Assembly (NCBI GenBank): GCA_021783695.1
Contig: JAJXTO010000005.1
Span: 1 to 64,000, forward strand
Direction: 5' to 3'
DNA from: Pseudomonadota bacterium
Lineage (GTDB): Bacteria > Pseudomonadota > Gammaproteobacteria > Burkholderiales > Burkholderiaceae_C
DNA length: 64,000 bases
A program made the translations under genes and the position numbers. The notes under the pieces were generated by a model that searched no databases, was not told the DNA's origin, and saw nothing but the letters and a program-made list of their open reading frames with translations. Below, piece after piece: positions 26,495 to 42,228 of the stretch (the stretch's first letter is position 1; every line of letters starts with the position of its first letter).

Positions 26495-27502
26495 TCAGCC
26501 GCGCCCGCGCGCCGCCACGGCGGGCTGCCAGCCCTGCAGCGCCTGCGCAGCGGCGGCATAGCCGATATCGATGGCCTCGGCAGCGCGGCCAAATTCGAGA
26601 AAACGAATATCGGCCAGCGGCGGGCGGATGAGCAGATCCGCGGGCTCGATGGCCAAGCGCATGCGTGTGAGGCTCATTTCCATCACGTTCACCGAGGCCA
26701 GCAGCACCTCGAACAGATTGGGCAGCGCGTCACTGCGGTCCGCCCAGCGCGAAAACTGCGCGCGCGTGTTGCTGCCAAGCAGCAGGCGCGATTTGAGGTC
26801 GCCCATCACCCGGCGGTAATCCGTCACCCAGCTCTGCGCCTGCTGGTCTGTGACCGCAAGGCGTTTGGGCGCACCGCGCTGCAGACGCGGCCGGCCGTCC
26901 ACCACGCCATGATTCAAGTCCACGGCAATGACCACGTCGGCCCCGAGCGCGCGCGCCACGCTCACCGGCAGCGGGTTGCTCAGGCCGCCATCGACCAGCA
27001 CCTGCGCGCCACGGCGCACCGGGGTGAAGATGCCGGGTACGGCAATGCTGGCGCGCACCGCGTCGATCACGTCGCCATCCTGCAGGATCACCTCGTCGCC
27101 GCTGAGCAGATCGGTCGCCACGGCGGCGAAGCGGGTGGGCAGATCAACAATCTGCGTGGCCGGCAGATGCTCGCGCACCAGCGCCGTGACCTTGGCGCCA
27201 TCGATCAGTCCTGAACGCGGGAACACCATGTCGAAAAACGACAGGGTCTTTTTCCAGTCGAAGGTCTTGAACGTGGCCTCCAGGCCATCGGTGCTGCCCG
27301 AAGCGGCAATCGCCCCCACCAGCGCGCCGATACTGCAGCCGGCGATGCAGTCGATCTGCACCCCGGCATCGGCCAAGGCCCGCAACACCCCCAGATGCGC
27401 CATGCCACGCGCAGAGCCGCCGCCCAGCGCCAGCCCCACGCGCTGACGCTTGCGGCTTTGCTCGGACGGCGCGGCTGATTGCGGCACAGGACGGGATGGC
27501 AT
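26495..27502 (-). CDS. patatin-like phospholipase family protein (RssA/NTE type)
   Basis: LALGGGSARGMAHLGVLRAL, GCSIGALVGA, DGGLSNPLPV. Confidence 0.9.
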   Translation of the reverse strand: MPSRPVPQSAAPSEQSRKRQRVGLALGGGSARGMAHLGVLRALADAGVQIDCIAGCSIGALVGAIAASGSTDGLEATFKTFDWKKTLSFFDMVFPRSGLIDGAKVTALVREHLPATQIVDLPTRFAAVATDLLSGDEVILQDGDVIDAVRASIAVPGIFTPVRRGAQVLVDGGLSNPLPVSVARALGADVVIAVDLNHGVVDGRPRLQRGAPKRLAVTDQQAQSWVTDYRRVMGDLKSRLLLGSNTRAQFSRWADRSDALPNLFEVLLASVNVMEMSLTRMRLAIEPADLLIRPPLADIRFLEFGRAAEAIDIGYAAAAQALQGWQPAVAARGRG

Positions 27503-27828: not shown

Positions 27829-28446
27829 ATGCTCCATCTCCCCGCCCTCTGGAACGCGATCAATCTCGGTCTCTACATGCATTGGGCTGCCGTCGGCGGC
27901 GCGTCGCAAGTCAGCGTGGATGTGGCCTTGTTGTTCGCCGAATACGCCATCTATGCCGCGCCGCTGCTGCTGGTCTGGGGCTGGCTGCGCCGACCGGACG
28001 CGCTGCGCCTGCCGCTGGTGCAGGCAGCGGGCGCGGTGCTGCTTGCCCTGGGCATCAATCAGCTCATCGGGCTGATGGTGTTCGAGCCGCGACCCTTTGC
28101 GGTCGGTCTTGGCCCGGCGCTTTTGGCGCACGCGCCCGACAGCAGCTTCCCAAGCGACCACCTCACGGTGATGTGGGCCGTGGCGGCCAGCCTGCTGCTT
28201 TCTGCCCCGTGGCGCAGGGCGGGTCTGCTGCTGGCGCTGCTGGGCCTGCCCATGGCCTGGGCGCGGATCTATCTCGGTGTGCATTGGCCACTGGACATGG
28301 TTGGCGCCGCGCTCAGCGGTGCCGTGGCCGCGCTGGTCATGCACGGCGCGCGCGGCTGGCTTCTGCAGCCCGCCATGCCCCTGCTTTCCCGCCTGTATCG
28401 CAAGCTGTTCGCCCTGGCCATCCACCATGGCTGGGCGCTACGCTAA
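27829..28446 (+). CDS. PAP2 family phosphatase / undecaprenyl-diphosphatase-like
   Basis: FEPRPFAVGLG, DSSFPSDHLTVMWAV, RIYLGVHWPLDMVGAAL. Confidence 0.87.
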   Translation: MLHLPALWNAINLGLYMHWAAVGGASQVSVDVALLFAEYAIYAAPLLLVWGWLRRPDALRLPLVQAAGAVLLALGINQLIGLMVFEPRPFAVGLGPALLAHAPDSSFPSDHLTVMWAVAASLLLSAPWRRAGLLLALLGLPMAWARIYLGVHWPLDMVGAALSGAVAALVMHGARGWLLQPAMPLLSRLYRKLFALAIHHGWALR

Positions 28447-28451
28447 GACCC

Positions 28452-29855
28452 ATGACGTCCACGCCATTTCCCTTTCCCCACTTGCGCCGCAGCCTGCTGC
28501 TCGCCGCCCTGCTGCTGGGCGGTTGCGCCAGTTATCACCCGGACCCGCTGCCCACCGCGCCGCATCTGGCCGCGTCGGTGCAGGGCCTGCAGGTCGCGCG
28601 CAGCAGCATCGCCCTGCCAGCACTGGCGCACTATGCCTTCGACCCCGCAAAGCCGCTCGACGCCACCGGCCTGGCCATCCTCGCCGTGCTCAACAACCCG
28701 CAACTCAAGGCCGAGCGTGCCAAGCTGGGCGTGGCCCGTGCGCAGGCGTTCGACGCCGGTCTGCTGCCCGACCCGCAACTGAGCCTGACGCGCGACTTCC
28801 CCGGCAACAGCGTGGGCGCCACGACCTCGGCGTTCAATCTCGGCCTGTCCTACGACATCGCCGCGCTCATCACCCACCACGCCGCCTCCCGCGCTGCGCA
28901 GCACGCCGCGACGCAGGTCGATCTGCAGGTGCTGTGGGCCGAGTGGCAGACCGTGGCGCAGGCCCGGCTGCTCTACACCCAGATCAGCGGCAACAGCGCC
29001 CGCCTGGCGTTGCTGGAGCAGGAGCGCAGTCTGTTCCAGCAGCGCCTGCAGCGCAGCCAGGCGGCTCTGGCGCAGGGCAATGTCACCCGTCTGGACGTGG
29101 ACGCGCAGCTTGTGCCGCTGCAGGCGCTCACCCAGACCATCCAGGGCATCGAGCGCCAGCAGCTTGGCCTGCAATCACAGCTCCATGCTCTGCTCGGCCT
29201 GCAGGCGGATGTGCCGCTGCCCCTGGCCGCCCCCGGCATGCGTCCCGCGCCCGATGCGGCGCAGGTGGATACGGCGCTCGGGAATCTGCCGCGCATCCGC
29301 CCCGATCTGATGGCGCTGCAGGCCGGTTATGCGGCGCAGGAGCAGAAGGTGTGGCAGTCCGTGCTCGGCCAGTTCCCCGCGTTCAACCTCGGCTTCACCC
29401 GCGCGCGCGACACCGCGGGAGTGAACACCGTGGGCTTTGGTGTGAGCATCAGCCTGCCGCTGTTCAACCGCAACCAGGGCGTGATTGCCACGCAGCGCGC
29501 CACCCGCGCGCAACTGCGCGCCGACTATCAGGCCCGGCTCGACCAGGCCGATGCCGACGTGCGCCAGGCGCAGGCCGACCTCGCGCTGCTGCAGCAACAG
29601 CGCCAGGCGTTGCTGGCCGCGCTGCCCGCGCTGGAATCTGCCGAGGCCGCGGCGCAACAGGCGCTGCAGCACGGCGGCATGACCCTGCTCGAATTCATCA
29701 ACCAGCGCACCGCCCTGCTCGACCAGCGTCTGGCTCTGCAGGCCAACGCCCAGCAGACCGAAGAACAGGCGCTGGCGCTGCAGCTCCTCACCGGTCTGGG
29801 CCCGTACCGCCACGCTGCCGCCACGCCGTTCCTCCCCTCCAAGCAACAGCCATGA
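28452..29855 (+). CDS. TolC family outer-membrane efflux lipoprotein
   Basis: Lipobox LLLGGCASY; OEP-type coiled-coil; precedes RND adaptor. Confidence 0.88.
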   Translation: MTSTPFPFPHLRRSLLLAALLLGGCASYHPDPLPTAPHLAASVQGLQVARSSIALPALAHYAFDPAKPLDATGLAILAVLNNPQLKAERAKLGVARAQAFDAGLLPDPQLSLTRDFPGNSVGATTSAFNLGLSYDIAALITHHAASRAAQHAATQVDLQVLWAEWQTVAQARLLYTQISGNSARLALLEQERSLFQQRLQRSQAALAQGNVTRLDVDAQLVPLQALTQTIQGIERQQLGLQSQLHALLGLQADVPLPLAAPGMRPAPDAAQVDTALGNLPRIRPDLMALQAGYAAQEQKVWQSVLGQFPAFNLGFTRARDTAGVNTVGFGVSISLPLFNRNQGVIATQRATRAQLRADYQARLDQADADVRQAQADLALLQQQRQALLAALPALESAEAAAQQALQHGGMTLLEFINQRTALLDQRLALQANAQQTEEQALALQLLTGLGPYRHAAATPFLPSKQQP

Positions 29856-30982
29856 CCCTTCCAGCCCGCACCCGACTACTGCTCCTGGCCGCCTGCCTGC
29901 TGCCCGCCGTGCTTCCCGCAAGTCGCGCCGCCGAGCCCGCAATCTCCGCCCTGGTGCAGACCGCGCCCCTGCAACGCGGCGAACTGCTGCACACCCTGCG
30001 CGCCTACGCCGTGGTCCAAGTCCCGGCCAGCCAGACCCAGGCCCTCACCTTCCAGCATGCCATGCAGGTCCAGACCGTCGCCGTGCATGCCGGACAGGCG
30101 GTGCGCAAAGGCCAGCTGCTCGCCACCCTGCGCGGCGACGCCAGCAGCACGCTCGCCTACACCCAGGCGCAGACCGCCGTGTCGTTCGCGCAGGGTGAAC
30201 TCGACCGCATGACCGCGCTCAAGGCGCAGCAGCTCGCCACGCAGGCGCAGGTGGACGCGGCGCGCAGGGCGCTGCTCGATGCGCAGGCGCAGTTGCGCAG
30301 CCTGCAGCAACAGGGCGCAGGCCAGCCCGAGACACGGGTGGTGGCGCCGATCGACGGCATCGTGCTCGCCGTGAGCGCGGCACCGGGCGACCTGCTCGCC
30401 GCGGGCAGCCCGCTGCTGCAGCTCGGGCGCAACGGCAGCCTGCAGGCGCTGGCCGGTGTGGCGCCGGAAGACGCCGCGCGCCTGCAGCCCGGCCAGTCGG
30501 CGCGCCTGACCGCCGTGTTCGATCCCGCGCAGCATTGGCAGGGCACCATCCGCAGCATCGGCGCGGCCATCAACCCCAAGACTCAGCGGCTGGATGTGCA
30601 GATCGCCCTCCCAGCCCAGGCGAATCTGCCAGCGGCCGGAACCAGTGTGCAAGCCGACATGGTGCTCGGCCGCTGGCGCGGCTGGGTGGTGCCGCGCGAC
30701 GCGGTACTGCAGGATGAACGTGGCGCCTACGTCTTTCAGGACGACAAGGGCCGCGCCCGCCGCGTGCCGGTGCGCATCGCCATCGAAAGCGGACTGCAGA
30801 CCGGCATCACAGGCGCCATCGATCCTGCCCTGCCGCTGATCGTGGTCGGCAACTATGCACTGCGCGACGGCATGGCGCTGCGCGTGACGCCAGGAAACGC
30901 AGGGTCGCCCCAGGTTTCCTCGATCCCCACGGGGGGCGGGTCGGCGAGCCGGCCCTCGGAGCCCTCAGGAGCGACCCGATGA
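29852..30982 (+). CDS. efflux RND periplasmic adaptor subunit
   Basis: Signal peptide, biotin-lipoyl-like (VHAGQAVRKGQLLATLRG), VAPIDGIVLAVSAAPGDLL. Confidence 0.9.
   Translation: MTLPARTRLLLLAACLLPAVLPASRAAEPAISALVQTAPLQRGELLHTLRAYAVVQVPASQTQALTFQHAMQVQTVAVHAGQAVRKGQLLATLRGDASSTLAYTQAQTAVSFAQGELDRMTALKAQQLATQAQVDAARRALLDAQAQLRSLQQQGAGQPETRVVAPIDGIVLAVSAAPGDLLAAGSPLLQLGRNGSLQALAGVAPEDAARLQPGQSARLTAVFDPAQHWQGTIRSIGAAINPKTQRLDVQIALPAQANLPAAGTSVQADMVLGRWRGWVVPRDAVLQDERGAYVFQDDKGRARRVPVRIAIESGLQTGITGAIDPALPLIVVGNYALRDGMALRVTPGNAGSPQVSSIPTGGGSASRPSEPSGATR
30889..30977. repeat. GC-rich dispersed repeat, copy 2, with terminal inverted GGGTCGC/GCGACCC arms, forming the C-terminus of the adaptor
   Basis: GCCAGGAAACGCAGGGTCGCCCCAGG...GAGCC aligns to reverse complement of 12774-12839; arms at 30902-30908 and 30971-30977. 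Confidence 0.5.
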
Positions 30983-33900
30983 GCGGCGCCTCGGCCTGGC
31001 TGCAACGCCACCGGCGCTCCGTGCTGTTCCTGCTGGCGCTGCTGGCCGTCGGTGGCGTGTTCGCCGCGTTCAAGCTGCCGGTGGGCCTGTTCCCGAATGT
31101 GGACTTTCCCCGGGTGGTGGTCAGCGCCGATGCCGGCGACCGCCCGGCCAGCCAGATGATGCTGCAGGTCACGCAGCCCCTGGAACAGGCGGTGCGCCGC
31201 GTGCCCGGCGTGGTGGACGTGCGCTCGACCACCAGCCGCGGCACTGCCGACATTTCGGTGAGCTTCGACTGGGGCACGCCGATGGCGCTGGCCGCGGTGC
31301 AGGTCAACGAGGCCGTGACGCAGATGCTGCCGCAACTGCCGCCGGGCACGCAGGTGTCGAGCAAGCGCATGGACCCCACGGTCGATCCGGTCATTGCCTA
31401 CAGCCTGACCTCCCACAGTCTCACGCCCACCCAGCTCTACGATCTGGCCGAGTTCCAGTTGCGCCCGCTGCTCTCCAGCATTGGCGGTGTGGCGCGGGTG
31501 CAAATCCAGGGCGGGGCGCAGGAGGAATACCACGTCACCCTCGATCCGCTGAAATTGCAGTCGCTTGGCCTGGCGCTGCAGGACGTGAGCAACGCCGTGG
31601 CCGCGGCCAACGGCGTGCAGGCCGTGGGCCACCTTCAGGACCGCTACAAGCTGCTGCTGGCGCTGGCCGACGCACGGCTGCATGACGCGGCGCAGATCGC
31701 CGACATCGTGCTGCGCGCTGGCCCCGATGGCGTGGTGCGGCTGCGCGATGTGGCGCGCATCAGCCGCAGCACGGTGCCGCAATGGGTGCGCATCACCGCC
31801 GACGGGCAGGACGCCGTGCTGCTCAACATCTACCAGCAGCCCGGCGGCAACACCGTGCAGATCGCCCGCCATGTGCGCGACCTGTTGGCCAAAACCCCGC
31901 TGCCGCCCGGCGCGCATCTGGCGAGCTGGTATGACCAGAGCACCCTGGTGGTGGACAGCGCCGCCAGCGTGCGCGACGCCATTCTGATCGGTGTGGCGCT
32001 GGCCGGGCTGGTGCTGCTGTTCTTCCTGCGCAGTCTGAAAATCACACTCATTGCCATGATCACCGTACCGGCCGTGCTGGCGGCCACGGTGGTGCTGCTC
32101 TACGCCCTGGGCATGAGCTTCAACATCATGACCCTGGGCGGCATGGCCGCCGCCGTGGGCCTCGTGATCGACGACGCCATTGTGATGAGCGAGCACATCG
32201 TGCGGCGCCTGAGCGAGGCGCGGCACCGGGGCGCGGCGCAGGCGCGGCACAGCGGCATCCTGCACGCGGCGATGGAATACCTGCGGCCGCTTGCCGGGTC
32301 GAGCGCATCCACAGTGGTCATCTTTCTGCCGCTGGCGTTCCTGTCCGGCGTCACCGGGGCGTTTTTCAAGGCGCTGTCGTTCACCATGGCAGCGGCGTTG
32401 GTGATCTCGTTTTTCGTCGCCTGGCTGGCGGTGCCGCTGCTGGCCGACAAACTGCTTTCCCCCAAGGACATTGCCCGTGAGACGCAGCGCGGACATGGCC
32501 GCTGGCTGTCGGCCGTGCAGCGCGGCTATGCCCGCGTGCTCGGCGCCAGTCTGCGCCGTCCCTGGCTGGCCGTGCTTGGCGTGGCGCCGTTGCTGCTGGC
32601 GGGTTGGCTGGCTTACGGACAGGTGGGCAGCGGCTTCATGCCGCATATGGACGAAGGCGGCTTCATTCTGGATTACCGCACCCCGCCCGGCACCTCGCTC
32701 ACCGAGACCGACCGCATCCTGTCTCAGGTGGAGAACATTCTGCGCACCACGCCCGAGGTGCAGACCTGGTCGCGCCGCACCGGGGCGCAACTTGGCGGCG
32801 GCGTGACCGAGGCCAACGAGGGCGACTTTTTCGTGCGCCTGAAACCGCCGCCGCGCAAGTCCATCGACGTGGTGATGGAAGACGTGCGCCAGCGCATCGA
32901 AACCCAGGTGCCGGGGGTGAAGATCGAGCTGGCGCAGTTGATGGAAGACCTGATCGGCGACCTCACCGCCGTGCCGCAGCCGGTGGAGATCAAGATCTTC
33001 GACGACAACCCGCAGCAGCTCGCTCAGCTCGCGCATCGCACCGCGGCGGCCATCGGCAAGATCCCCGGCATCGTCGATGTGCGCAGCGGCATCAAGCCCG
33101 CGGGCGACGCGCTCGACATTCGCGTCGATCCCACCCGCGCCGCGCTCGAAGGCGTCGATCCGCAGCAGGTGCAGCAGCAGTTGCAGACCCTGATCGGCGG
33201 CAGCGTCGTCACCCAAATCCAGCAAGGCCCGAAGATGGTGGGCGTGCGGCTGTGGACGCCGCTGCCGCTGCGCCAGACCACCGACGACATCGCCCGCCTG
33301 CCGCTGCGCGCGGCTGACGGCCATGTGTTCCCTCTGCGCCGCATCGCCACCCTGACGGTGCTCACCGGCCAGCCGGAAATCCACCGCGACAATCTCAAGG
33401 CCATGGCCGCAGTGACAGCGCGCATCAGCGGGCGCGATCTGGGCTCGACCATCGCCGACGTGAAACGAATCATCGATGCCCCCGGCTACTTTCCGCCCGG
33501 GGTCTACGCCCAGCTCGGCGGGCTGTACAAGCAGCAGCAGATCGCGTTTCAGGGGCTGATCAGCGTGCTCGGCGCGGCGGTGCTGCTGGTGTTCCTGCTG
33601 CTGCTGTTTCTGTACGAGCGCTTCAAGGTGGCGATCGCCATCCTGGCCATGCCGCTGCTGGCGCTGCCCGCGGTGTTCATCGGCCTGTGGGCGTCGGGAA
33701 TCGAGCTGAACATCTCGGCCATGATGGGCATGACCATGATCGTGGGCATCGTCACCGAAGTCGCCATCTTCTACTTCAGCGAAGTGCAATCCCTGCTGCG
33801 CACGCAGCCGGAGCAAGGACTGGACGCCGCACTCGTCGCCGCCGGACAGAACCGCATGCGCCCCATCGCCATGACCACTCTGGCCGCCATGCTGACGCTG

Positions 33901-34101
33901 GCCCCGCTGGCCCTGGCGCTGGGGCAGGGCTCGGCGATGCAGCAGCCGCTGGCGGTGGCCATCATCGCCGGGCTCGCGGTGCAGATGCCGCTGGTGCTGC
34001 TGCTCATGCCCGTGCTGTTCAAGCTGCTGCGCGGCCGTCTGGACGACACGGAAGCGGACGACAATCCCTCCGTGTCAGCAGTCTCTCCCACCACGGAATG
34101 A
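30979..34101 (+). CDS. efflux RND transporter permease subunit
   Basis: ~1040 aa; FPNVDFPRVVV, GLVIDDAIVMSEHIVRRL, typical AcrB/CzcA-superfamily architecture. Confidence 0.93.
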   Translation: MSGASAWLQRHRRSVLFLLALLAVGGVFAAFKLPVGLFPNVDFPRVVVSADAGDRPASQMMLQVTQPLEQAVRRVPGVVDVRSTTSRGTADISVSFDWGTPMALAAVQVNEAVTQMLPQLPPGTQVSSKRMDPTVDPVIAYSLTSHSLTPTQLYDLAEFQLRPLLSSIGGVARVQIQGGAQEEYHVTLDPLKLQSLGLALQDVSNAVAAANGVQAVGHLQDRYKLLLALADARLHDAAQIADIVLRAGPDGVVRLRDVARISRSTVPQWVRITADGQDAVLLNIYQQPGGNTVQIARHVRDLLAKTPLPPGAHLASWYDQSTLVVDSAASVRDAILIGVALAGLVLLFFLRSLKITLIAMITVPAVLAATVVLLYALGMSFNIMTLGGMAAAVGLVIDDAIVMSEHIVRRLSEARHRGAAQARHSGILHAAMEYLRPLAGSSASTVVIFLPLAFLSGVTGAFFKALSFTMAAALVISFFVAWLAVPLLADKLLSPKDIARETQRGHGRWLSAVQRGYARVLGASLRRPWLAVLGVAPLLLAGWLAYGQVGSGFMPHMDEGGFILDYRTPPGTSLTETDRILSQVENILRTTPEVQTWSRRTGAQLGGGVTEANEGDFFVRLKPPPRKSIDVVMEDVRQRIETQVPGVKIELAQLMEDLIGDLTAVPQPVEIKIFDDNPQQLAQLAHRTAAAIGKIPGIVDVRSGIKPAGDALDIRVDPTRAALEGVDPQQVQQQLQTLIGGSVVTQIQQGPKMVGVRLWTPLPLRQTTDDIARLPLRAADGHVFPLRRIATLTVLTGQPEIHRDNLKAMAAVTARISGRDLGSTIADVKRIIDAPGYFPPGVYAQLGGLYKQQQIAFQGLISVLGAAVLLVFLLLLFLYERFKVAIAILAMPLLALPAVFIGLWASGIELNISAMMGMTMIVGIVTEVAIFYFSEVQSLLRTQPEQGLDAALVAAGQNRMRPIAMTTLAAMLTLAPLALALGQGSAMQQPLAVAIIAGLAVQMPLVLLLMPVLFKLLRGRLDDTEADDNPSVSAVSPTTE

Positions 34102-34104
34102 ACC

Positions 34105-34791
34105 ATGCGCATCCTCCTGGTTGAAGACGATCACATGCTCGGCGCCGCCACCCGCGAGGCGCTGCGCGACGCCACGCACGCGGTGGACTGGGTGCTCGAC
34201 GGCGCCTCGGCCCTCAGCGCCGCGCAAGGCGGCGAATATGAGGTGGTGCTGCTCGACCTGGGACTGCCCAAGCGCGATGGACTGTCGGTGCTGCAGGCGC
34301 TGCGGCAGGCGGGCAGTACCCTGCCCGTTCTCATCCTGACGGCGCGCGACGCGGTGGAAGACCGCATCCGCGGACTCGACCTCGGCGCCGACGACTATCT
34401 GGTCAAGCCGTTCGAGAGCGGCGAACTGCTCGCGCGCATCCGCGCCGTCGCCCGGCGCCGCGGCGGGCAGGCGCAGCCGGTGCTGTCCAACGGCGTGCTG
34501 GAACTCGATCCGGTCACCCGCGAGGTGCGCTTCCAGGGCCAGACACAACGCCTGACCGCGCGCGAATACGCCCTGCTCCATGCCCTGCTGCTGCGCCCCG
34601 GCGCCATCCTGTCGCGCAGCGAACTCGAAGATCGCATCTACGGCTGGAACGAGGAAGTCGAAAGCAACGCGGTCGAATTCCTCATCCACAGCCTGCGCAA
34701 GAAGCTCGCGCCCGAGGTCATCAAGAACGTGCGCGGGGTGGGCTGGATGGCGCCGCGCGAAACCGCGCCCGGCGCGGGACACCGCCCATGA
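34105..34791 (+). CDS. OmpR-family response regulator
   Basis: MRILLVEDDHMLG, VVLLDLGLPKRDGL, LTARDAVEDRIRGLDLGADDYLVKPF. Confidence 0.95.
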   Translation: MRILLVEDDHMLGAATREALRDATHAVDWVLDGASALSAAQGGEYEVVLLDLGLPKRDGLSVLQALRQAGSTLPVLILTARDAVEDRIRGLDLGADDYLVKPFESGELLARIRAVARRRGGQAQPVLSNGVLELDPVTREVRFQGQTQRLTAREYALLHALLLRPGAILSRSELEDRIYGWNEEVESNAVEFLIHSLRKKLAPEVIKNVRGVGWMAPRETAPGAGHRP

Positions 34792-36152
34792 AGCGTCCAC
34801 CGCCCTCCACGCCGGAGCCGTTCTCGACCCACTCGCTGCTGTGGCGGCTGTGGGTCTGGACCGCCGGGGTCGTGCTGCTTGCCGGAATCCTCGCCAGCGG
34901 CGTGTCCTACCTGCTGGCCTGGCAGGAGAGCAATGAACTGCAGGACACCCAGCTGCAGCAGATCGCGGCGCTGGTCGCCGCAGGCAGCGTGCGCCCGCAG
35001 TCGCTCGACCGCTCGCTGCAGGGCGACGTGGATCAGGACGCACGCATCGTCATCCAGTCGCTGCGCGCCGACGCGCCGCCCGGCCGACTGGCACTGCCGC
35101 ACACCCTCGGCTCGGGGTTTCACACCGTGATGGAGCCCGGCGGCAACACCTGGCGGGTGTTCGTGCAACACACCCCGCGCGGAACGGTGGCCGTGGCACA
35201 GCGCACCGATCTGCGATCCGACGCCGCCAGCGACAGCGCCTTGCGCAGCCTGCTGCCCATGCTCGCGCTGGTGCCGCTGCTGGTCTTGCTGGTCGGATGG
35301 GTGGTCGGCCGCGCACTGCGGCCGCTGCGGCTGCTGGCCCACGGCGTCGATGCCCGCGGCGAAACCGATCTGCAGCCGCTTTCCGAAAACGGCGTTCCGC
35401 GCGAAATCCTGCCCTTCGTGCGCTCGATCAACCGCTTGCTGGCGCGGCTGAATGCCTCGATGGAGCAGCAGCGCCGCTTCGTCGCCGACGCCGCGCACGA
35501 ACTGCGCACACCGATCGCCGTGCTCGGCATGCAGGTGGACAACCTCAAGCCGCTGCAACTCCAGCCACAGGCGCGAGAGCGCATCGACGCGCTGCGCCAG
35601 GGCCTGCAGCGCGCCCGCGCCGTGGTCGAGCAACTGCTCAGCCTGGCCCGCTCGCAGGGCGACCAGGCGGTGCAATGGCAGACCATCGACCCGACGCAAA
35701 TCGTGCGCGAGGTAATTGCCGATCTGCTGCCCTTGGCCGAAAGCCGCCAGATCGATCTCGGGCTGGACACCGCACAGCCCGTGCGCATCCGTACCGATCC
35801 GCACCAGCTCTACACCCTGTTGCGCAATGCCACCGACAACGCCGTGCGCTACACGCCGACTGGCGGTCGCGTCGATCTGCGCGTGCGTGTGGAAGACGGT
35901 CACCATCCGTGCGCAGTGATCGAAGTGCAGGACACCGGCCCTGGCATCCCGCCAGATCAACTCGCGCGCGTGTTCGAACCCTTCGTGCGCCTGCCCGAAG
36001 CCGCGGGAGAAGGCAGCGGGCTTGGCCTGTCCATCATCCGCCAGATCGCCAAGAGGCTGGGCGGGGAGGTCGCGCTGGAAAACGCCAAGGGCGGCGGATT
36101 GATCCTGCGGTACAGCCAGCCGCTCCAGTCTGCCAAATCAGATCAAAGTTGA
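34788..36152 (+). CDS. sensor histidine kinase
   Basis: FVADAAHELRTPIAVL H-box, NATDNAVRYTP, DTGPGIPPDQ, GSGLGLSIIRQIA. Confidence 0.95.
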   Translation: MKRPPPSTPEPFSTHSLLWRLWVWTAGVVLLAGILASGVSYLLAWQESNELQDTQLQQIAALVAAGSVRPQSLDRSLQGDVDQDARIVIQSLRADAPPGRLALPHTLGSGFHTVMEPGGNTWRVFVQHTPRGTVAVAQRTDLRSDAASDSALRSLLPMLALVPLLVLLVGWVVGRALRPLRLLAHGVDARGETDLQPLSENGVPREILPFVRSINRLLARLNASMEQQRRFVADAAHELRTPIAVLGMQVDNLKPLQLQPQARERIDALRQGLQRARAVVEQLLSLARSQGDQAVQWQTIDPTQIVREVIADLLPLAESRQIDLGLDTAQPVRIRTDPHQLYTLLRNATDNAVRYTPTGGRVDLRVRVEDGHHPCAVIEVQDTGPGIPPDQLARVFEPFVRLPEAAGEGSGLGLSIIRQIAKRLGGEVALENAKGGGLILRYSQPLQSAKSDQS

Positions 36153-36634: not shown

Positions 36635-36667
36635 GGGGCGATTCGAAGCATCGGGTCGCCCTTTTTT
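36635..36667 (+). terminator. rho-independent terminator after PepSY gene
   Basis: GGGCGA-N14-TCGCCC followed by TTTTTT. Confidence 0.6.
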
Positions 36668-36704
36668 GTTTTGGTGGTTCGCGTTCCAAACCAGGGAGAT
36701 CATC

Positions 36705-37622
36705 ATGTTGGTCGAAGTGCGGGATTTGAAACTGTCGATCGGCCCGGTGCCGATCCTGCAAGGCGTGCAGCTCGGCATGGACGCGGGCGACATTTACGGC
36801 TTGCTCGGGCCGAACGGCGCGGGAAAAAGCACGACCTTGTCCGTGCTGACTGGATTGCGCCGGGCTGGCTCCGGCGCAGTGAGTGTGCTGGGCCTGGATC
36901 CGGCAACCCAGGCACAGGCACTCCGCCGCCGCGTCGGGGTGCTGTCCGAGGACTCTGGTTTTTATGGCTGGATGAAAGCGCGCGACTATCTGCGCTTCAT
37001 GTCCAGTCTCTACGGCCTCGACCTTGCGATGCAACAGATCGAGGCGCAACTGGAGCGCGTCGGCCTGTCGGGCGCATCCGATCACCCCGTCGGCGCGTTC
37101 TCGCGCGGCATGAAGCAGCGGCTGGGGCTGGCGCGCGCCCTGCTGCACAAACCCGAATTGCTCGTCCTCGACGAACCCACCAACGGTCTCGACCCGCGAG
37201 GGCGGCGTGAAATCCACGATCTGCTCATCGACCTCAGCCAGCATCACGGCGTGGGGATTTTGCTGTGCACCCACCTGCTCGACGACGTCGACAGGCTATG
37301 CAACCGCATCGGCATCCTCGCCGAGGGGCGCTCGGTCGTGGAGGGCTCGCTGGCCGATCTGCTCGCCACGCGCACCGGCGCGGGACGCTACCGGCTGCGG
37401 CTGCGCGGCGATCGCCCCCTCTCCGCAGCCTTGCCCGAAGGTGTCGCGCTGATCGCAAGCGAAGGTGAATGGATGCACGTCGCCCTGCCCGCAAAAGCCG
37501 ATCCCGGACAAGTCTGGGCCGCCCTGCTTGCGGCGGGCTGGGACCTGGTCGAAATTCACAACGAGTCCGGCGGACTGGAAGAGTTCTATCTGGACCTCAC
37601 CCACAAGGAGTTGACATCATGA
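36705..37622 (+). CDS. ABC transporter ATP-binding protein
   Basis: YGLLGPNGAGKSTTLSVLTGL, FSRGMKQRLGLARALLHKPELLVLDEPTNGLDP. Confidence 0.95.
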   Translation: MLVEVRDLKLSIGPVPILQGVQLGMDAGDIYGLLGPNGAGKSTTLSVLTGLRRAGSGAVSVLGLDPATQAQALRRRVGVLSEDSGFYGWMKARDYLRFMSSLYGLDLAMQQIEAQLERVGLSGASDHPVGAFSRGMKQRLGLARALLHKPELLVLDEPTNGLDPRGRREIHDLLIDLSQHHGVGILLCTHLLDDVDRLCNRIGILAEGRSVVEGSLADLLATRTGAGRYRLRLRGDRPLSAALPEGVALIASEGEWMHVALPAKADPGQVWAALLAAGWDLVEIHNESGGLEEFYLDLTHKELTS

Positions 37623-38374
37623 ATTCCATCCGTCTGATCGCGGCCAAGGAAACCGGGGAGTTGCTCGGCAGTGGCAGGGGCCTGGGCTGGCTCATCACCC
37701 TGGCGGTGGTGTTGTCGGCATTTTCCTTGCTGCTCGTGGGCAGCACCGAGTTGAGCCTGCTCGACAATGCGCAGGCCGTCTATATGGTGATGGGCACCAT
37801 CACCGCGCTGGGCGGGCTGCTGGCCGTGGTGGTCGGCAGCGACGCCATCGCCGGCGAGCGCGAACGCGGCACGCTCGTCCCGCTGCTGCTCACACCGGTC
37901 AGCAGCACCGGCATCGTGCTGGGCAAGATGGGCGCGCAGCTCGCCGCATGGCTGGCGGCCTACGTCGTCGCGCTGCCCTATTTATGGGCGGTGGGCAGCA
38001 GCGGGCAGAACCTGGGCGCTGCGGTGCTGTATCTGGCGCTGTTCGGCACGCCGCTGGTCATCGGCTTCGGCTTTTACGCACTCGGGCTGTCCGCCCGGCT
38101 GGGCAATGTGCGCAATGCCATGCTGGTGGCGCTGGTCACGCTCATCCTGGCTGCCAGCCCCCTGGTGCTCGGCCCCAGCCTGCGGCAGAGCGGAATCGGC
38201 AAGATGTTCGATGCGGTCAACCCCTTCTCCGCCGCTCTCAATGCCTTTGACAGCGTGGTGATCGACTCGGACCCCTTCGGGATGCAGATCGGCCGCCTCG
38301 GCGTGGTGCTCACTTGGCTGGCCGTCACCGCGTTGTTCGCGCGCGCCAGTGCCCGGCGGCTGGAAGGGACATGA
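37619..38374 (+). CDS. ABC-2 type transporter permease
   Basis: Polytopic; DAIAGERERGTLVPLLLTPVSSTGIVLGKM; ATGA overlap with ATPase. Confidence 0.9.
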   Translation: MNSIRLIAAKETGELLGSGRGLGWLITLAVVLSAFSLLLVGSTELSLLDNAQAVYMVMGTITALGGLLAVVVGSDAIAGERERGTLVPLLLTPVSSTGIVLGKMGAQLAAWLAAYVVALPYLWAVGSSGQNLGAAVLYLALFGTPLVIGFGFYALGLSARLGNVRNAMLVALVTLILAASPLVLGPSLRQSGIGKMFDAVNPFSAALNAFDSVVIDSDPFGMQIGRLGVVLTWLAVTALFARASARRLEGT

Positions 38375-38454
38375 CCATGGCCTCCATTCGACTCGGTTGC
38401 AGCCGCGAGTTCGCGCGGAGCAACCATCATCGCAACCTTCTTCAGGAGCCTGTC

Positions 38455-38982
38455 ATGAAACATTGGATCCTCGCCTTGGCCTTCGCCTGTGTCGGCGGCA
38501 TGGGACTGGCCCACGCGCAGACGGCACCCCAGCTCAGCATCGCGCTGAACCCGGCGCCCGGCAACCCGCCATCGCCGGAAATGGGCAATTGGATGCACTT
38601 TCGCAGTGTGGTGCGCAACACGGGCGCCGCGCCCGCGCAGTCGGTGGTCGCCTGGATCGGTCTGGTGCGCGTCGACGCGGGTCACGAGCAGCCGATGGAT
38701 CTGGAAGACTGGAGCGCGCACAAGGCGGTGGTGATCCCATCCCTCCAGCCCGGTCAGTCATTCACGACCGAGTGGCCGATGCGGTTGATCCAGAACGGCG
38801 ACTATCGCGTGGTCATCAGCGCCGCGGAGCGCCATGCGAGCAGGCTCGATTCCAGCCCGTTCCTGGACCTGCACGTGCGGGTCAAACCAACAGTCGAGTC
38901 CAGGCGCATCCTGCCGGTGGCGATCGGCGTGCCGCTGCTTCTGGCACTGATCGCCGGCTTGCGTTTGCGCCGGCGGGCCTGA
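38455..38982 (+). CDS. exported hypothetical protein with C-terminal TM anchor
   Basis: Signal peptide MKHWILALAFACVGGMGLAHAQ; C-terminal TM VAIGVPLLLALIAGLRLRRRA. Confidence 0.65.
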   Translation: MKHWILALAFACVGGMGLAHAQTAPQLSIALNPAPGNPPSPEMGNWMHFRSVVRNTGAAPAQSVVAWIGLVRVDAGHEQPMDLEDWSAHKAVVIPSLQPGQSFTTEWPMRLIQNGDYRVVISAAERHASRLDSSPFLDLHVRVKPTVESRRILPVAIGVPLLLALIAGLRLRRRA

Positions 38983-39006: not shown

Positions 39007-42000
39007 TCAAGGCCCATGAAGGGCGGTTAGGGCTGGCTGCTGGACGGGCGTGATCATGGGCTGGGGCGCATAACGCAAGCGATCGGCATCGTGGCGCAAT
39101 GCGATATGCGCGCCTCCAGCGATCACCAGGGTCGCCAGCAGGAGGGCCGCAAATTTTTCGGGGCGCAGTTGTTCATGGGATTGGTATTCGTAAGCGATGG
39201 CCAAGGCGGCAATCCAGGCCACGCTGAAGCTCGCTCCGCCCAGCACGTCCGACAGCCAGTGTGCGCCGAGATAGAGACGGGAAAGGCTGATCAAGCCGAC
39301 CAGCGTGATGGTGAATGCGATGACGACCTTGCGCAAACCAGGGCGCGCATTGCGGCACAGCAAAAACGCCAGGAAGCCGTAGACCACCACGCTCATCGTG
39401 GCATGGCCACTCGGGAAGGAAAACTGTTCGATCCCGCCATAGAACGCCCCGGGACGCTGCCGATGCAGCGCCAGCTTCAGCACCTTGGCCAGCACCTCGG
39501 CGACGCCGATGGCCGCGAGCCAATAGCCCGCCGTCAACCAGAGCCGCTGGCTGAGGAACCACGCCAACGCGATGAAAATCATTGGCAGCAGGACTTGCGC
39601 ATCACCCAGCTCGGTGATGGCAATCATCACCCTGTCCATGACCGGTGTCCGCAGTGACTGCAGCAGGTGATAGGCGAAAACATCCACCTCGACCAGCGGA
39701 TCGTGGCTGATCACGTCCTCCAGCACGCCGAAAAACAGCCAGGCACCGCCCACGACGAGCACCGCCGCGGTCAAGAGAAACCCTTTCGGGCTGTCCGCGC
39801 TCAGGAGCCACGTCACGATGTCCTGTCTGCGCAGCGGCCGGGTTTTCATCGCTTCCGCAGGGACGTGGGTGGCGACCGCGGTGCTCCAATGCAGGACACC
39901 GGCAGCCGCGCTGGCGATCACGGCCACGGCGAGCCACGCTCCTGGCGGCAGGCGTTCCAGGGCAAAGAATGCGCGCAGCGGCGACGCGCCGAGCACGGTC
40001 ACGAACGCAGTCACCGTTCCGCCGAGAAGAAGCCAGCGGCGCGGCGTGAGCGGTCGCGCCACCAGGACGAGAACCCAGCTTGCGACGGCGAACAGGACCA
40101 CCGTCGCGGCGGTGCGAGCTTGCGCCAGGCTGCCGCCGGAATCGGTGTGGATGAGCGCGTAGGCGGCAAACGTCGCGCCGGCGACGAACAGGCCGCTGGG
40201 CACGGCGAAGCGCAGGACGCGCCCCACGAAGCCGGGCTGTGCCCGCTGGTCGTTTCGTTCGAGGGACAGGAAAAAGGCAGGGATGCCGATGGTCAACGCC
40301 CCGACCAGGGTCAGGTGGCGCGGCAGGAAGGGGAACGTGACATCGGCGATGCCGACAGCGAGCGCCAGGAGCATTGCATAGATTGTTTTGGTCAGGAACA
40401 GCGCCGCCAGCCGTTCGACGTTGCCGATCACGCGGCGGCCCTCCGCGATGACCGACGGCAGGCTCGCGAACCGATTGTCGAGGAGGACGAGGTGAGAGAC
40501 GGCGCGGGCGGCCCCGGCACCGGCGCCCATCGCGATGCCGATGTCGGCGCGCTTGAGCGCCAGGACGTCGTTGACGCCGTCGCCCACCATCGCGACCACG
40601 TGGCCTTTTGCCTGAAGTGACGCGATGAGCGACTGTTTCTGCTGGGGCGACAGCCGGCTGAAGACCGAGCGCGTTTCCACCAGTCCGGCCAGCGCTTGTG
40701 CGTCTTGCGGCAGCGCTCGTGCATCGACGGGATCGCTGCCCTGTGCGATGCCGAGTTGTGTCGCGACCTGGCTGACGGTGGCCGGATGGTCTCCAGAGAG
40801 GACCTTGATCGTGACGCCCTGGGCGTCGAAGTAGCGCAGTGTCTCGGCCGCATCGGCGCGAACCTGCTCGGTCAACAGAACCAGGGCGGCAGGAACGAGA
40901 GGGGCAGGCAGCTGGTCGGACATCAGTCTGCTCGCGGTCCTGGCGAGAAGAAGCACGCGCCGCCCCGACTCGGCATGCTCCTCCACGCGGCGTCGTATGG
41001 GGTCGCTGCCGGGACTATCCGCCAGCAACACATCAGGCGCGCCAAGCACCCAGGTGCCCAGCGCATCCAGCGTCGCGCCGCTCCATTTGCGCGCCGACGA
41101 GAACGGCACGGAATCGGTAACGGCATGGGCTTGTTCCCCGGGGTAGGCACGCCCGATCGCCAGCAAGGTGGCATTCGGCTTGGGCTCGGTGGCCGCCAGG
41201 GCCGCCAGCGCGTCCAGCGCATCGGGCTGATCGCCCAGCATTTCGACCTCTTCGAGCCAGGGCTCCCGCTCGGTCAGCGTGCCGGTCTTGTCGAGGCAGA
41301 TCACGTCGACCCTGGCCAGCGTCTCGGTCGCAGGGAGGTCCTGCACCAGCGTCCGATGGCGGGCCAGCCTGACGGCGCCTACCGCCAGGGCGAGGCTGGT
41401 CAGAAGCACCAGCCCCTCCGGCACCATCGCGACCACGCCGGCGGCGGAAAACAACAGGGCGTCGCCAACCGGCGCCTGGATGATGAATTGACCGGCAAAA
41501 AGTAGCGCAGCGGTGGGCACGATGGCCCAGGTGATATACCGCAGAATCCGGTTGATCCCTGCTCTCAGCTCGGAATGCGCCAGGCTGAAGCGTCTGGCCT
41601 CGCTGGCGAGGCGGTTCCCGTAGGCGGAGGCGCCCACGCGGGTCACGCGGCAGCGGCCCGTGCCGGCGACCACGAAGCTTCCCGACAGCACCTCCTCCCC
41701 GGGCCGTTTGGGAACCGCGGCCGACTCACCCGTGAGGAGAGACTCATCGACTTCGAGCCCCAAGGCGCTGAGCAGGACGCCGTCGACCACCACCTGATCG
41801 CCCGGCGCCAGCTCCAGGATGTCGTCCAGCACGATCGTTGCCGTCGGGATGTCGACGCTCCGCCCGGAGCGAACCGCGCGTGCCTTGGGCTGGCTCACCA
41901 GCGCGAGGCGATCGAGGGTCCGTTTTGCCCGGAGTTCCTGGACGATGCCGATCAGGGTGTTGACGACGAGCACCCCGCCGAACAGGGCGTCCTGCCAGGG

Positions 42001-42228
42001 ACCCGTCGTCACAATCACGACGAACAGCGCCCCCAGGATCGCGTTGAACCGGGTCAGGACGTTGGCGCGCACGATTTCCAGAGCCGTGCGGCTCGTCGGC
42101 ATCTCGACGCGATTGACATCGCCGCGTGCGATGCGTGCCCGTACCTCGGCGTCGGTCAGCCCCTGCACGTCGGCCGACATTGCACGACCCGACGTCTTGC
42201 CAGCCTCGGCCATTTCCACCGGCTTCAT
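39007..42228 (-). CDS. P-type cation ATPase (CtpE-like) fused to C-terminal PAP2 phosphatase
   Basis: LTGES, CLDKTGTLTE, MVGDGVNDVLALKRADIGIAMG; then C-terminal KLALHRQRP, FSFPSGHATMS, SRLYLGAHWLSDVLGG, continuous frame. Start at 42228 or 42180. Confidence 0.9.
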   Translation of the reverse strand: MKPVEMAEAGKTSGRAMSADVQGLTDAEVRARIARGDVNRVEMPTSRTALEIVRANVLTRFNAILGALFVVIVTTGPWQDALFGGVLVVNTLIGIVQELRAKRTLDRLALVSQPKARAVRSGRSVDIPTATIVLDDILELAPGDQVVVDGVLLSALGLEVDESLLTGESAAVPKRPGEEVLSGSFVVAGTGRCRVTRVGASAYGNRLASEARRFSLAHSELRAGINRILRYITWAIVPTAALLFAGQFIIQAPVGDALLFSAAGVVAMVPEGLVLLTSLALAVGAVRLARHRTLVQDLPATETLARVDVICLDKTGTLTEREPWLEEVEMLGDQPDALDALAALAATEPKPNATLLAIGRAYPGEQAHAVTDSVPFSSARKWSGATLDALGTWVLGAPDVLLADSPGSDPIRRRVEEHAESGRRVLLLARTASRLMSDQLPAPLVPAALVLLTEQVRADAAETLRYFDAQGVTIKVLSGDHPATVSQVATQLGIAQGSDPVDARALPQDAQALAGLVETRSVFSRLSPQQKQSLIASLQAKGHVVAMVGDGVNDVLALKRADIGIAMGAGAGAARAVSHLVLLDNRFASLPSVIAEGRRVIGNVERLAALFLTKTIYAMLLALAVGIADVTFPFLPRHLTLVGALTIGIPAFFLSLERNDQRAQPGFVGRVLRFAVPSGLFVAGATFAAYALIHTDSGGSLAQARTAATVVLFAVASWVLVLVARPLTPRRWLLLGGTVTAFVTVLGASPLRAFFALERLPPGAWLAVAVIASAAAGVLHWSTAVATHVPAEAMKTRPLRRQDIVTWLLSADSPKGFLLTAAVLVVGGAWLFFGVLEDVISHDPLVEVDVFAYHLLQSLRTPVMDRVMIAITELGDAQVLLPMIFIALAWFLSQRLWLTAGYWLAAIGVAEVLAKVLKLALHRQRPGAFYGGIEQFSFPSGHATMSVVVYGFLAFLLCRNARPGLRKVVIAFTITLVGLISLSRLYLGAHWLSDVLGGASFSVAWIAALAIAYEYQSHEQLRPEKFAALLLATLVIAGGAHIALRHDADRLRYAPQPMITPVQQPALTALHGP

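Follow-up and report, generated by a model that had tools for sequence, protein, structure and literature searches.

The window analysed here, a 64,000-nucleotide stretch of DNA from a bacterium of the Burkholderiales (assembly GCA_021783695.1, contig JAJXTO010000005.1, positions 1 to 64,000), carries on its minus strand (39007..42228) a single gene in which a P6-type (CtpE-like) P-type ATPase is joined to a PAP2 phosphatase. One uninterrupted frame of about 1060-1075 amino acids (aa) had been described in an earlier reading made from the letters of the DNA alone (hereafter the sequence-only reading), and the fusion proved genuine: the frame runs from an ATG at 42228 to a stop codon at 39007-39009, encodes 1,073 aa without internal stops and extends over 1,222 codons from stop to stop. 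The start is ambiguous, with in-frame ATGs at 42228, 42213 and 42180; relatives favour the third, which would yield a protein of about 1,057 aa.

Pfam domains were assigned in the order E1-E2_ATPase (residues 112-291), Hydrolase of the HAD type (307-562), Cation_ATPase_C (632-778, slightly below cut-off) and PAP2 (902-1014, E 4e-19). With NCBIfam, the general HAD-IC P-type ATPase model alone passed, no substrate-specific cut-off was reached, and the nearest model at the C-terminus, the undecaprenyl-diphosphatase SepP, scored far under its cut-off. The ATPase half (residues 18-785; 39874..42177, minus strand as for all parts of the gene) has ten predicted transmembrane (TM) helices and the full catalytic motif set, LTGESA in the actuator domain (165-170; 41719..41736), the phosphorylation motif DKTGTLT (313-319; 41272..41292) and the hinge motif GDGVND (549-554; 40567..40584). 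In addition, it holds the TM4 motif PEGL (270-273; 41410..41421) known from CtpE (PMC5615198, PMC10654040) and, in TM6, TIGIPAFF (646-653; 40270..40293), where Ile stands for the Asp of Ca2+ efflux pumps, a hallmark of P6 ATPases (PMC10654040). The PAP2 membrane domain (818-1052; 39073..39777), with 6-7 TM helices, retains its three active-site motifs (K...RP, PSGH and SR-x5-H-x3-D) as C1 KLALHRQRP (918-926; 39451..39477), C2 PSGH (939-942; 39403..39414) and C3 SRLYLGAHWLSD (983-994; 39247..39282). Both halves are thus as complete in their motifs as the sequence-only reading had stated.

The structure was predicted, as had been proposed, with AlphaFold2, which modelled the full chain at a mean predicted local distance difference test score (pLDDT) of 83 and the PAP2 half at 93. 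The latter has the PAP2 membrane fold, its best solved match being B. subtilis PgpB (5jki; TM-score 0.82 by target length, E 7e-7). The whole chain matched best the cation pumps SPCA1, LMCA1 and MgtA, and no lipid flippase occurred among its top 50 structural matches. According to hydropathy, the ten ATPase helices bring the chain back to the cytoplasm; a basic linker follows (786-817; 39778..39873), predicted to be cytoplasmic from hydropathy, the positive-inside rule and the model, and then the PAP2 helices at 818-836, 874-892, 903-921, 940-958, 968-986 and 995-1013. Motifs C1-C3 are predicted to lie in periplasmic loops, i.e. to form an outward-facing site, consistent with PAP2 phosphatases of undecaprenyl pyrophosphate (C55-PP) working outside the cytoplasm (PMC12826051).

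The same end-to-end architecture was found at at least 17 further loci (50-88% identity; numbered L below), in Burkholderiales and in one genome of another order, so that at least 18 distinct fusions including that of the window were tabulated, two of them in one Paraburkholderia genome. Five more came to light among 400 genomes of the order, at least 12 named loci were obtained from a scan of 85,462 species genomes (two being the same contigs as earlier hits), and the one fusion outside the order came from a class-level search. A phylum-level sample of 399 genomes held no fusion apart from the window's, and no second copy was found among 151 genomes of the window's family. Carriers include Paraburkholderia and Trinickia strains as well as a complete Burkholderia contaminans plasmid, whose 1,257-aa homologue consists of ATPase, PAP2 and a C-terminal LssY_C domain and is annotated merely as 'HAD-IC family P-type ATPase'. 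The assembly of the window's genome, 51 contigs at 89% completeness, would leave room for two separate genes having been joined by assembly or annotation; because 17 further loci, including the complete plasmid, carry the same join, and no stop or frameshift separates the domains, such an artefact can be ruled out for practical purposes. A phage origin was likewise rejected, with no match in phages.

Both halves are under purifying selection, the ratio of nonsynonymous to synonymous substitution rates (dN/dS) between the window and its closest relatives being about 0.19 for the ATPase half and 0.15 for the PAP2 half. The P-type ATPase motifs were kept in all 18 fusions, with conservative variation (LSGEA) in some members other than the window, and the PAP2 motifs were intact in 16 of 18. 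In L040 the catalytic PAP2 motifs are lost (PSGD, LGANW, HP), in L041 one is altered (PISH), and in the trio with these damaged motifs selection on the PAP2 half is relaxed (dN/dS 0.24-0.36). These members, together with the dead PAP2 domains in DedA-PAP2-LssY_C proteins of L036, L063, L135 and L136, would suit a PAP2 half that serves mainly as a structural or regulatory tail of the pump, its catalysis being dispensable. We regard this as rather improbable: the motifs persist in 16 of 18 fusions, and the PAP2 half of the window evolves as slowly as its ATPase half.

In a quick tree with some long branches, with other P-type ATPases as outgroup and without Mycobacterium smegmatis CtpE itself, the ATPase halves of all 18 fusions formed one clade (Shimodaira-Hasegawa-like approximate likelihood ratio test, SH-aLRT, 100) within the P6 family. 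This clade sits inside stand-alone pumps of about 800 aa, mostly actinobacterial, and apart from other P-type ATPases; the grouping agrees, as do PEGL and the TM6 Ile, with the CtpE-like character that the sequence-only reading had assigned. This single clade makes one origin of the fusion probable, and several independent fusion events are unsupported for this half. CtpE and the P6 pumps (family 23) share with the fusion the 10-TM P-type ATPase body, PEGL in TM4 and Ile for the TM6 Asp, and actinobacterial stand-alone members are its nearest sequences (about 50-60% identity); they end after M10 (about 800 aa), whereas the fusion continues into PAP2, is hosted mostly by Burkholderiales and often lies at a resistance-nodulation-division (RND) efflux operon. 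A further stand-alone proteobacterial P6 pump (48% identity) was noted at L132:1420-3744, in a genome that shares the class but neither the order nor the family. Fusions and stand-alone pumps have in common the conserved polar residues of TM helices M2-M5 and T646 of M6, so the transport site and reaction appear unchanged; differences were seen at the end of M6 (S655, E657). As to whether split versions are neighbours, a motif scan placed a PAP2 or UppP gene near just 2 of 62 stand-alone P6 pumps, which rules out a general P6-PAP2 gene neighbourhood.

By sequence, the PAP2 half is closest to the PAP2 region of DedA(VTT)-PAP2-LssY_C proteins, with similarity from about residue 816. All fusion PAP2 halves fell into one clade (support 99/96) beside DedA-PAP2 proteins, a clade that also holds two unfused PAP2 genes, L065 and L071. 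An initial approximately unbiased (AU) test on the PAP2 tree had rejected a fusion-only clade; the rows of L065 and L071, mislabelled as DedA-type, are stand-alone PAP2 genes. That of L065 (L065:3-1353, on a contig of a Rhodoferax metagenome-assembled genome) follows a CopA-type P1B ATPase by 20 bp and represents an independent pump-phosphatase pairing. Four fusions (1,253-1,259 aa) keep an LssY_C-type tail, confirmed by Pfam for L036, and because of this retained tail the ancestor was probably ATPase-PAP2-LssY_C, i.e. DedA had been exchanged for a P6 ATPase. PAP2 type and junction helix are the same in the DedA-PAP2-LssY_C proteins (COG0586 fusions) and in the window protein; in the latter, however, a P-type ATPase replaces DedA, no VTT_dom (DedA) match was obtained with Pfam, and LssY_C is missing, also without a match in the window's whole genome. 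The two types even occupy the same place, the operon position of the B. contaminans fusion being taken on B. cenocepacia pBCEN1232 by a DedA-PAP2 gene. The sequence-only reading had named DedA/VTT-PAP2 fusions, but in setting them aside it passed over what is likely the parent of the PAP2 half.

A gene of the DedA-(catalytically dead PAP2)-LssY_C type directly follows the fusion in B. contaminans and Trinickia. Such proteins with lost PAP2 catalytic residues were recorded at L036:9784-11823, L063:11007-13079, L135:6284-8329 and L136:6290-8329, also where the ATPase fusion is absent, and a pseudo-phosphatase version of the module seems common. A division of labour between fusion and dead DedA partner was rejected, as DedA-PAP2 is equally dead at the fusion-free locus L135. 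The second fusion copy of Paraburkholderia UYCP14C (L059:7249-10374) groups by its ATPase half with the LssY_C-bearing fusions. Its PAP2 half joins the unfused PAP2 of L071 and not the PAP2 halves of the fusions closest to it by ATPase, suggesting that PAP2 was exchanged. The window's genome encodes two UppP (BacA) proteins, so that housekeeping C55-PP phosphatase activity need not fall to the fusion.

Known PAP2 fusions pair the phosphatase with a translocase of undecaprenyl phosphate (C55-P), either DedA or DUF368 (PMC10127716, PMC9876793). With a P6 ATPase as the partner here, the LssY_C-type tail kept in four members, and P6 pumps lacking the TM6 Asp and reported to transport inward (PMC10654040), the P6 module in the DedA slot might itself move C55-P, or another lipid phosphate, inward at the expense of ATP after PAP2 has made it. 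This is improbable in our view, as the PEGL Glu of cation pumps is retained in nearly all rows, the best structural matches are SPCA1, MgtA and LMCA1 with lipid flippases absent from the top 50, and Ca2+ transport by CtpE has been assayed directly with a radioactive label (PMC5615198). A wider proposition gives P6 ATPases, always or in some cases, the role of moving undecaprenyl phosphate or a similar lipid phosphate inward with ATP; in the fusion, PAP2 would then make C55-P in the outer leaflet and the ATPase in DedA's place would return it to the inner leaflet. This is if anything a longer shot still.

A TolC-MFP-RND operon (outer membrane factor, membrane fusion protein, RND permease) lies directly upstream of the fusion on the same strand in 8 of the 13 loci with enough flank (L036, L054, L056 and L059-L063), usually at a distance of tens to a few hundred bases, and of 20 bp in B. 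contaminans. The window has the same operon type at 27.8-34.1 kb on the opposite strand, within about 5 kb of the fusion. It is headed by another, stand-alone PAP2 phosphatase gene (27829..28446, plus strand, as for all coordinates in this sentence), continues with a TolC-type outer membrane factor (28440..29855, start approximate), an RND periplasmic adaptor of the CusB/HlyD type (29852..30982, start approximate) and the RND efflux permease (30979..34101), and is followed by a response regulator and sensor kinase (34105..36152; closest to PmrA and QseC, with heavy-metal types matching too, all below cut-off), PepSY, and genes for an ABC ATPase, an ABC-2 permease and a 222-aa protein (36666..38982). 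Because homologues of these last three directly follow the fusion in L056, the window arrangement looks like a local rearrangement. The permease at 30979-34101 is intermediate between multidrug and heavy-metal models; RND permeases beside the fusion in L056, L060, L061 and L063 have an unusual TM4 stretch, GEVVDDAI(V/I)DVEN. A patatin-like phospholipase gene (26495-27502) beside the PAP2-TolC-MFP-RND operon adds a second kind of lipid hydrolase, and what had looked like a repeated insertion element of 365 aa in the window proved to be three unrelated ORFs (open reading frames). The sequence-only reading needs correcting on the genomic context, which is an efflux operon of the TolC-MFP-RND type accompanied by further metal transporters.

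Among the other neighbours were GDT1 (adjoining the L058 fusion and near that of L059), NicO (L058 and L059), a chromate transporter (L059), a P1B pump (L062), DUF2282/DUF692 (L036) and a Tn3 transposase (L052). The unfused fusion-type PAP2 gene of L071 comes after RND and major facilitator superfamily (MFS) genes, a relative of the PAP2 half in L133 after RND-MFS genes, and, of the DedA-PAP2 relatives, that of L134 has DmeF nearby and that of L136 adjoins a two-component pair of the heavy-metal type. The position of GDT1 is compatible with a calcium function, in which the fusion would import Ca2+ like CtpE and PAP2 recycle C55-PP, so that carrier recycling and Ca2+ supply are co-adjusted and heavy metals are incidental. 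The P6 hallmarks and the polar TM residues common to stand-alone P6 pumps point the same way, as do CtpE's import of Ca2+ and its support of surface integrity (PMC5615198) and the genetic interaction of pneumococcal ctpE with the wall gene cozEa (PMC11371651). With RND, NicO, chromate, P1B and MFS genes dominating the loci, we hold this explanation to be possible, yet on the unlikely side.

A precedent in function comes from Cupriavidus, where PbrA exports lead and PbrB, a C55-PP phosphatase, supplies phosphate (PMC4790310, PMC8195591). In the pbr operon record (C. metallidurans pMOL30), annotated just as P-type ATPase and signal peptidase II, the identities of PbrA and PbrB were assigned by position and domain content. 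As in the fusion, a P-type ATPase is genetically joined to PAP2, pbrB overlapping pbrA by 4 bp; PbrA/PbrB, however, are two chains, PbrA, a P1B pump, contains HMA domains and a type II signal peptidase forms part of PbrB, whereas the fusion is one chain with no HMA domain and a P6-type TM6. The PAP2 part of PbrB is 36% identical over 99 aa to that of the window. By its sequence features, the fusion is similar in logic to PbrA/PbrB but no member of that system, having no HMA domain and not being P1B. DUF368-PAP2 and DUF368-BacA proteins also join a membrane transporter to a C55-PP phosphatase (PMC9876793), their translocase belonging to another family and not to the P-type ATPases. Transporter-PAP2 fusions, P-type ATPase and PAP2 as two genes, and P6 ATPases alone are therefore already known. 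A search of open-access literature, which took in neither most subscription journals nor InterPro architectures, yielded no description of a P-type ATPase in fusion with PAP2. Hence the statement that no P-ATPase-PAP2 system is established holds for the one-chain form, within that literature, and fails for separate genes.

Starting from the observed architecture and its conservation, the single clade of ATPase halves, the selection on both halves and the TolC-MFP-RND setting, we consider it about an even chance (roughly 0.5) that the fusion is an envelope module for metal or cation stress, a chimera of a P6 pump and a periplasm-facing lipid pyrophosphatase. A P6-type (CtpE-like) cation ATPase would have been joined via the short basic linker to the PAP2 half of a DedA-PAP2-LssY_C phosphatase, the donated part probably being PAP2-LssY_C at first. 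The ATPase would move a divalent cation across the inner membrane by the transport site that stand-alone P6 pumps use. At the periplasmic face of this membrane, the PAP2 site would cleave phosphate off a lipid pyrophosphate, for which C55-PP is the most likely candidate. Both halves would serve the envelope during cation or metal stress, by a logic like that of PbrA as pump and PbrB as C55-PP phosphatase. Several observations weigh against this interpretation. CtpE, the sole characterised P6 pump, is reported to import Ca2+ in Mycobacterium smegmatis, as measured directly with radioactive Ca2+ (PMC5615198), which is opposite to the metal export by PbrA; the fusions of L053, L055, L057 and L058 showed no adjoining RND operon; the window RND permease scores higher with multidrug than with heavy-metal RND models, though below both cut-offs; and the damaged PAP2 sites of L040 and L041 come with relaxed selection. 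The linked action of ATPase and phosphatase suggested in the sequence-only reading is doubtful as far as obligate catalytic coupling is concerned, the PAP2 motifs being damaged in 2 of 18 members, one badly; what links the halves is probably their shared location and joint expression.

The P6 ATPase family was proposed recently, counts a single characterised member and has an inward transport direction that calls for explanation. A natural fusion to a phosphatase of the lipid-carrier type, in the place usually taken by a C55-P flippase, offers a testable clue to the envelope role of this family, and the combination of pump and phosphatase in one chain within efflux loci extends the PbrA/PbrB idea. 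As culturable hosts (Paraburkholderia, Trinickia) carry the fusion, the question is accessible to experiment.

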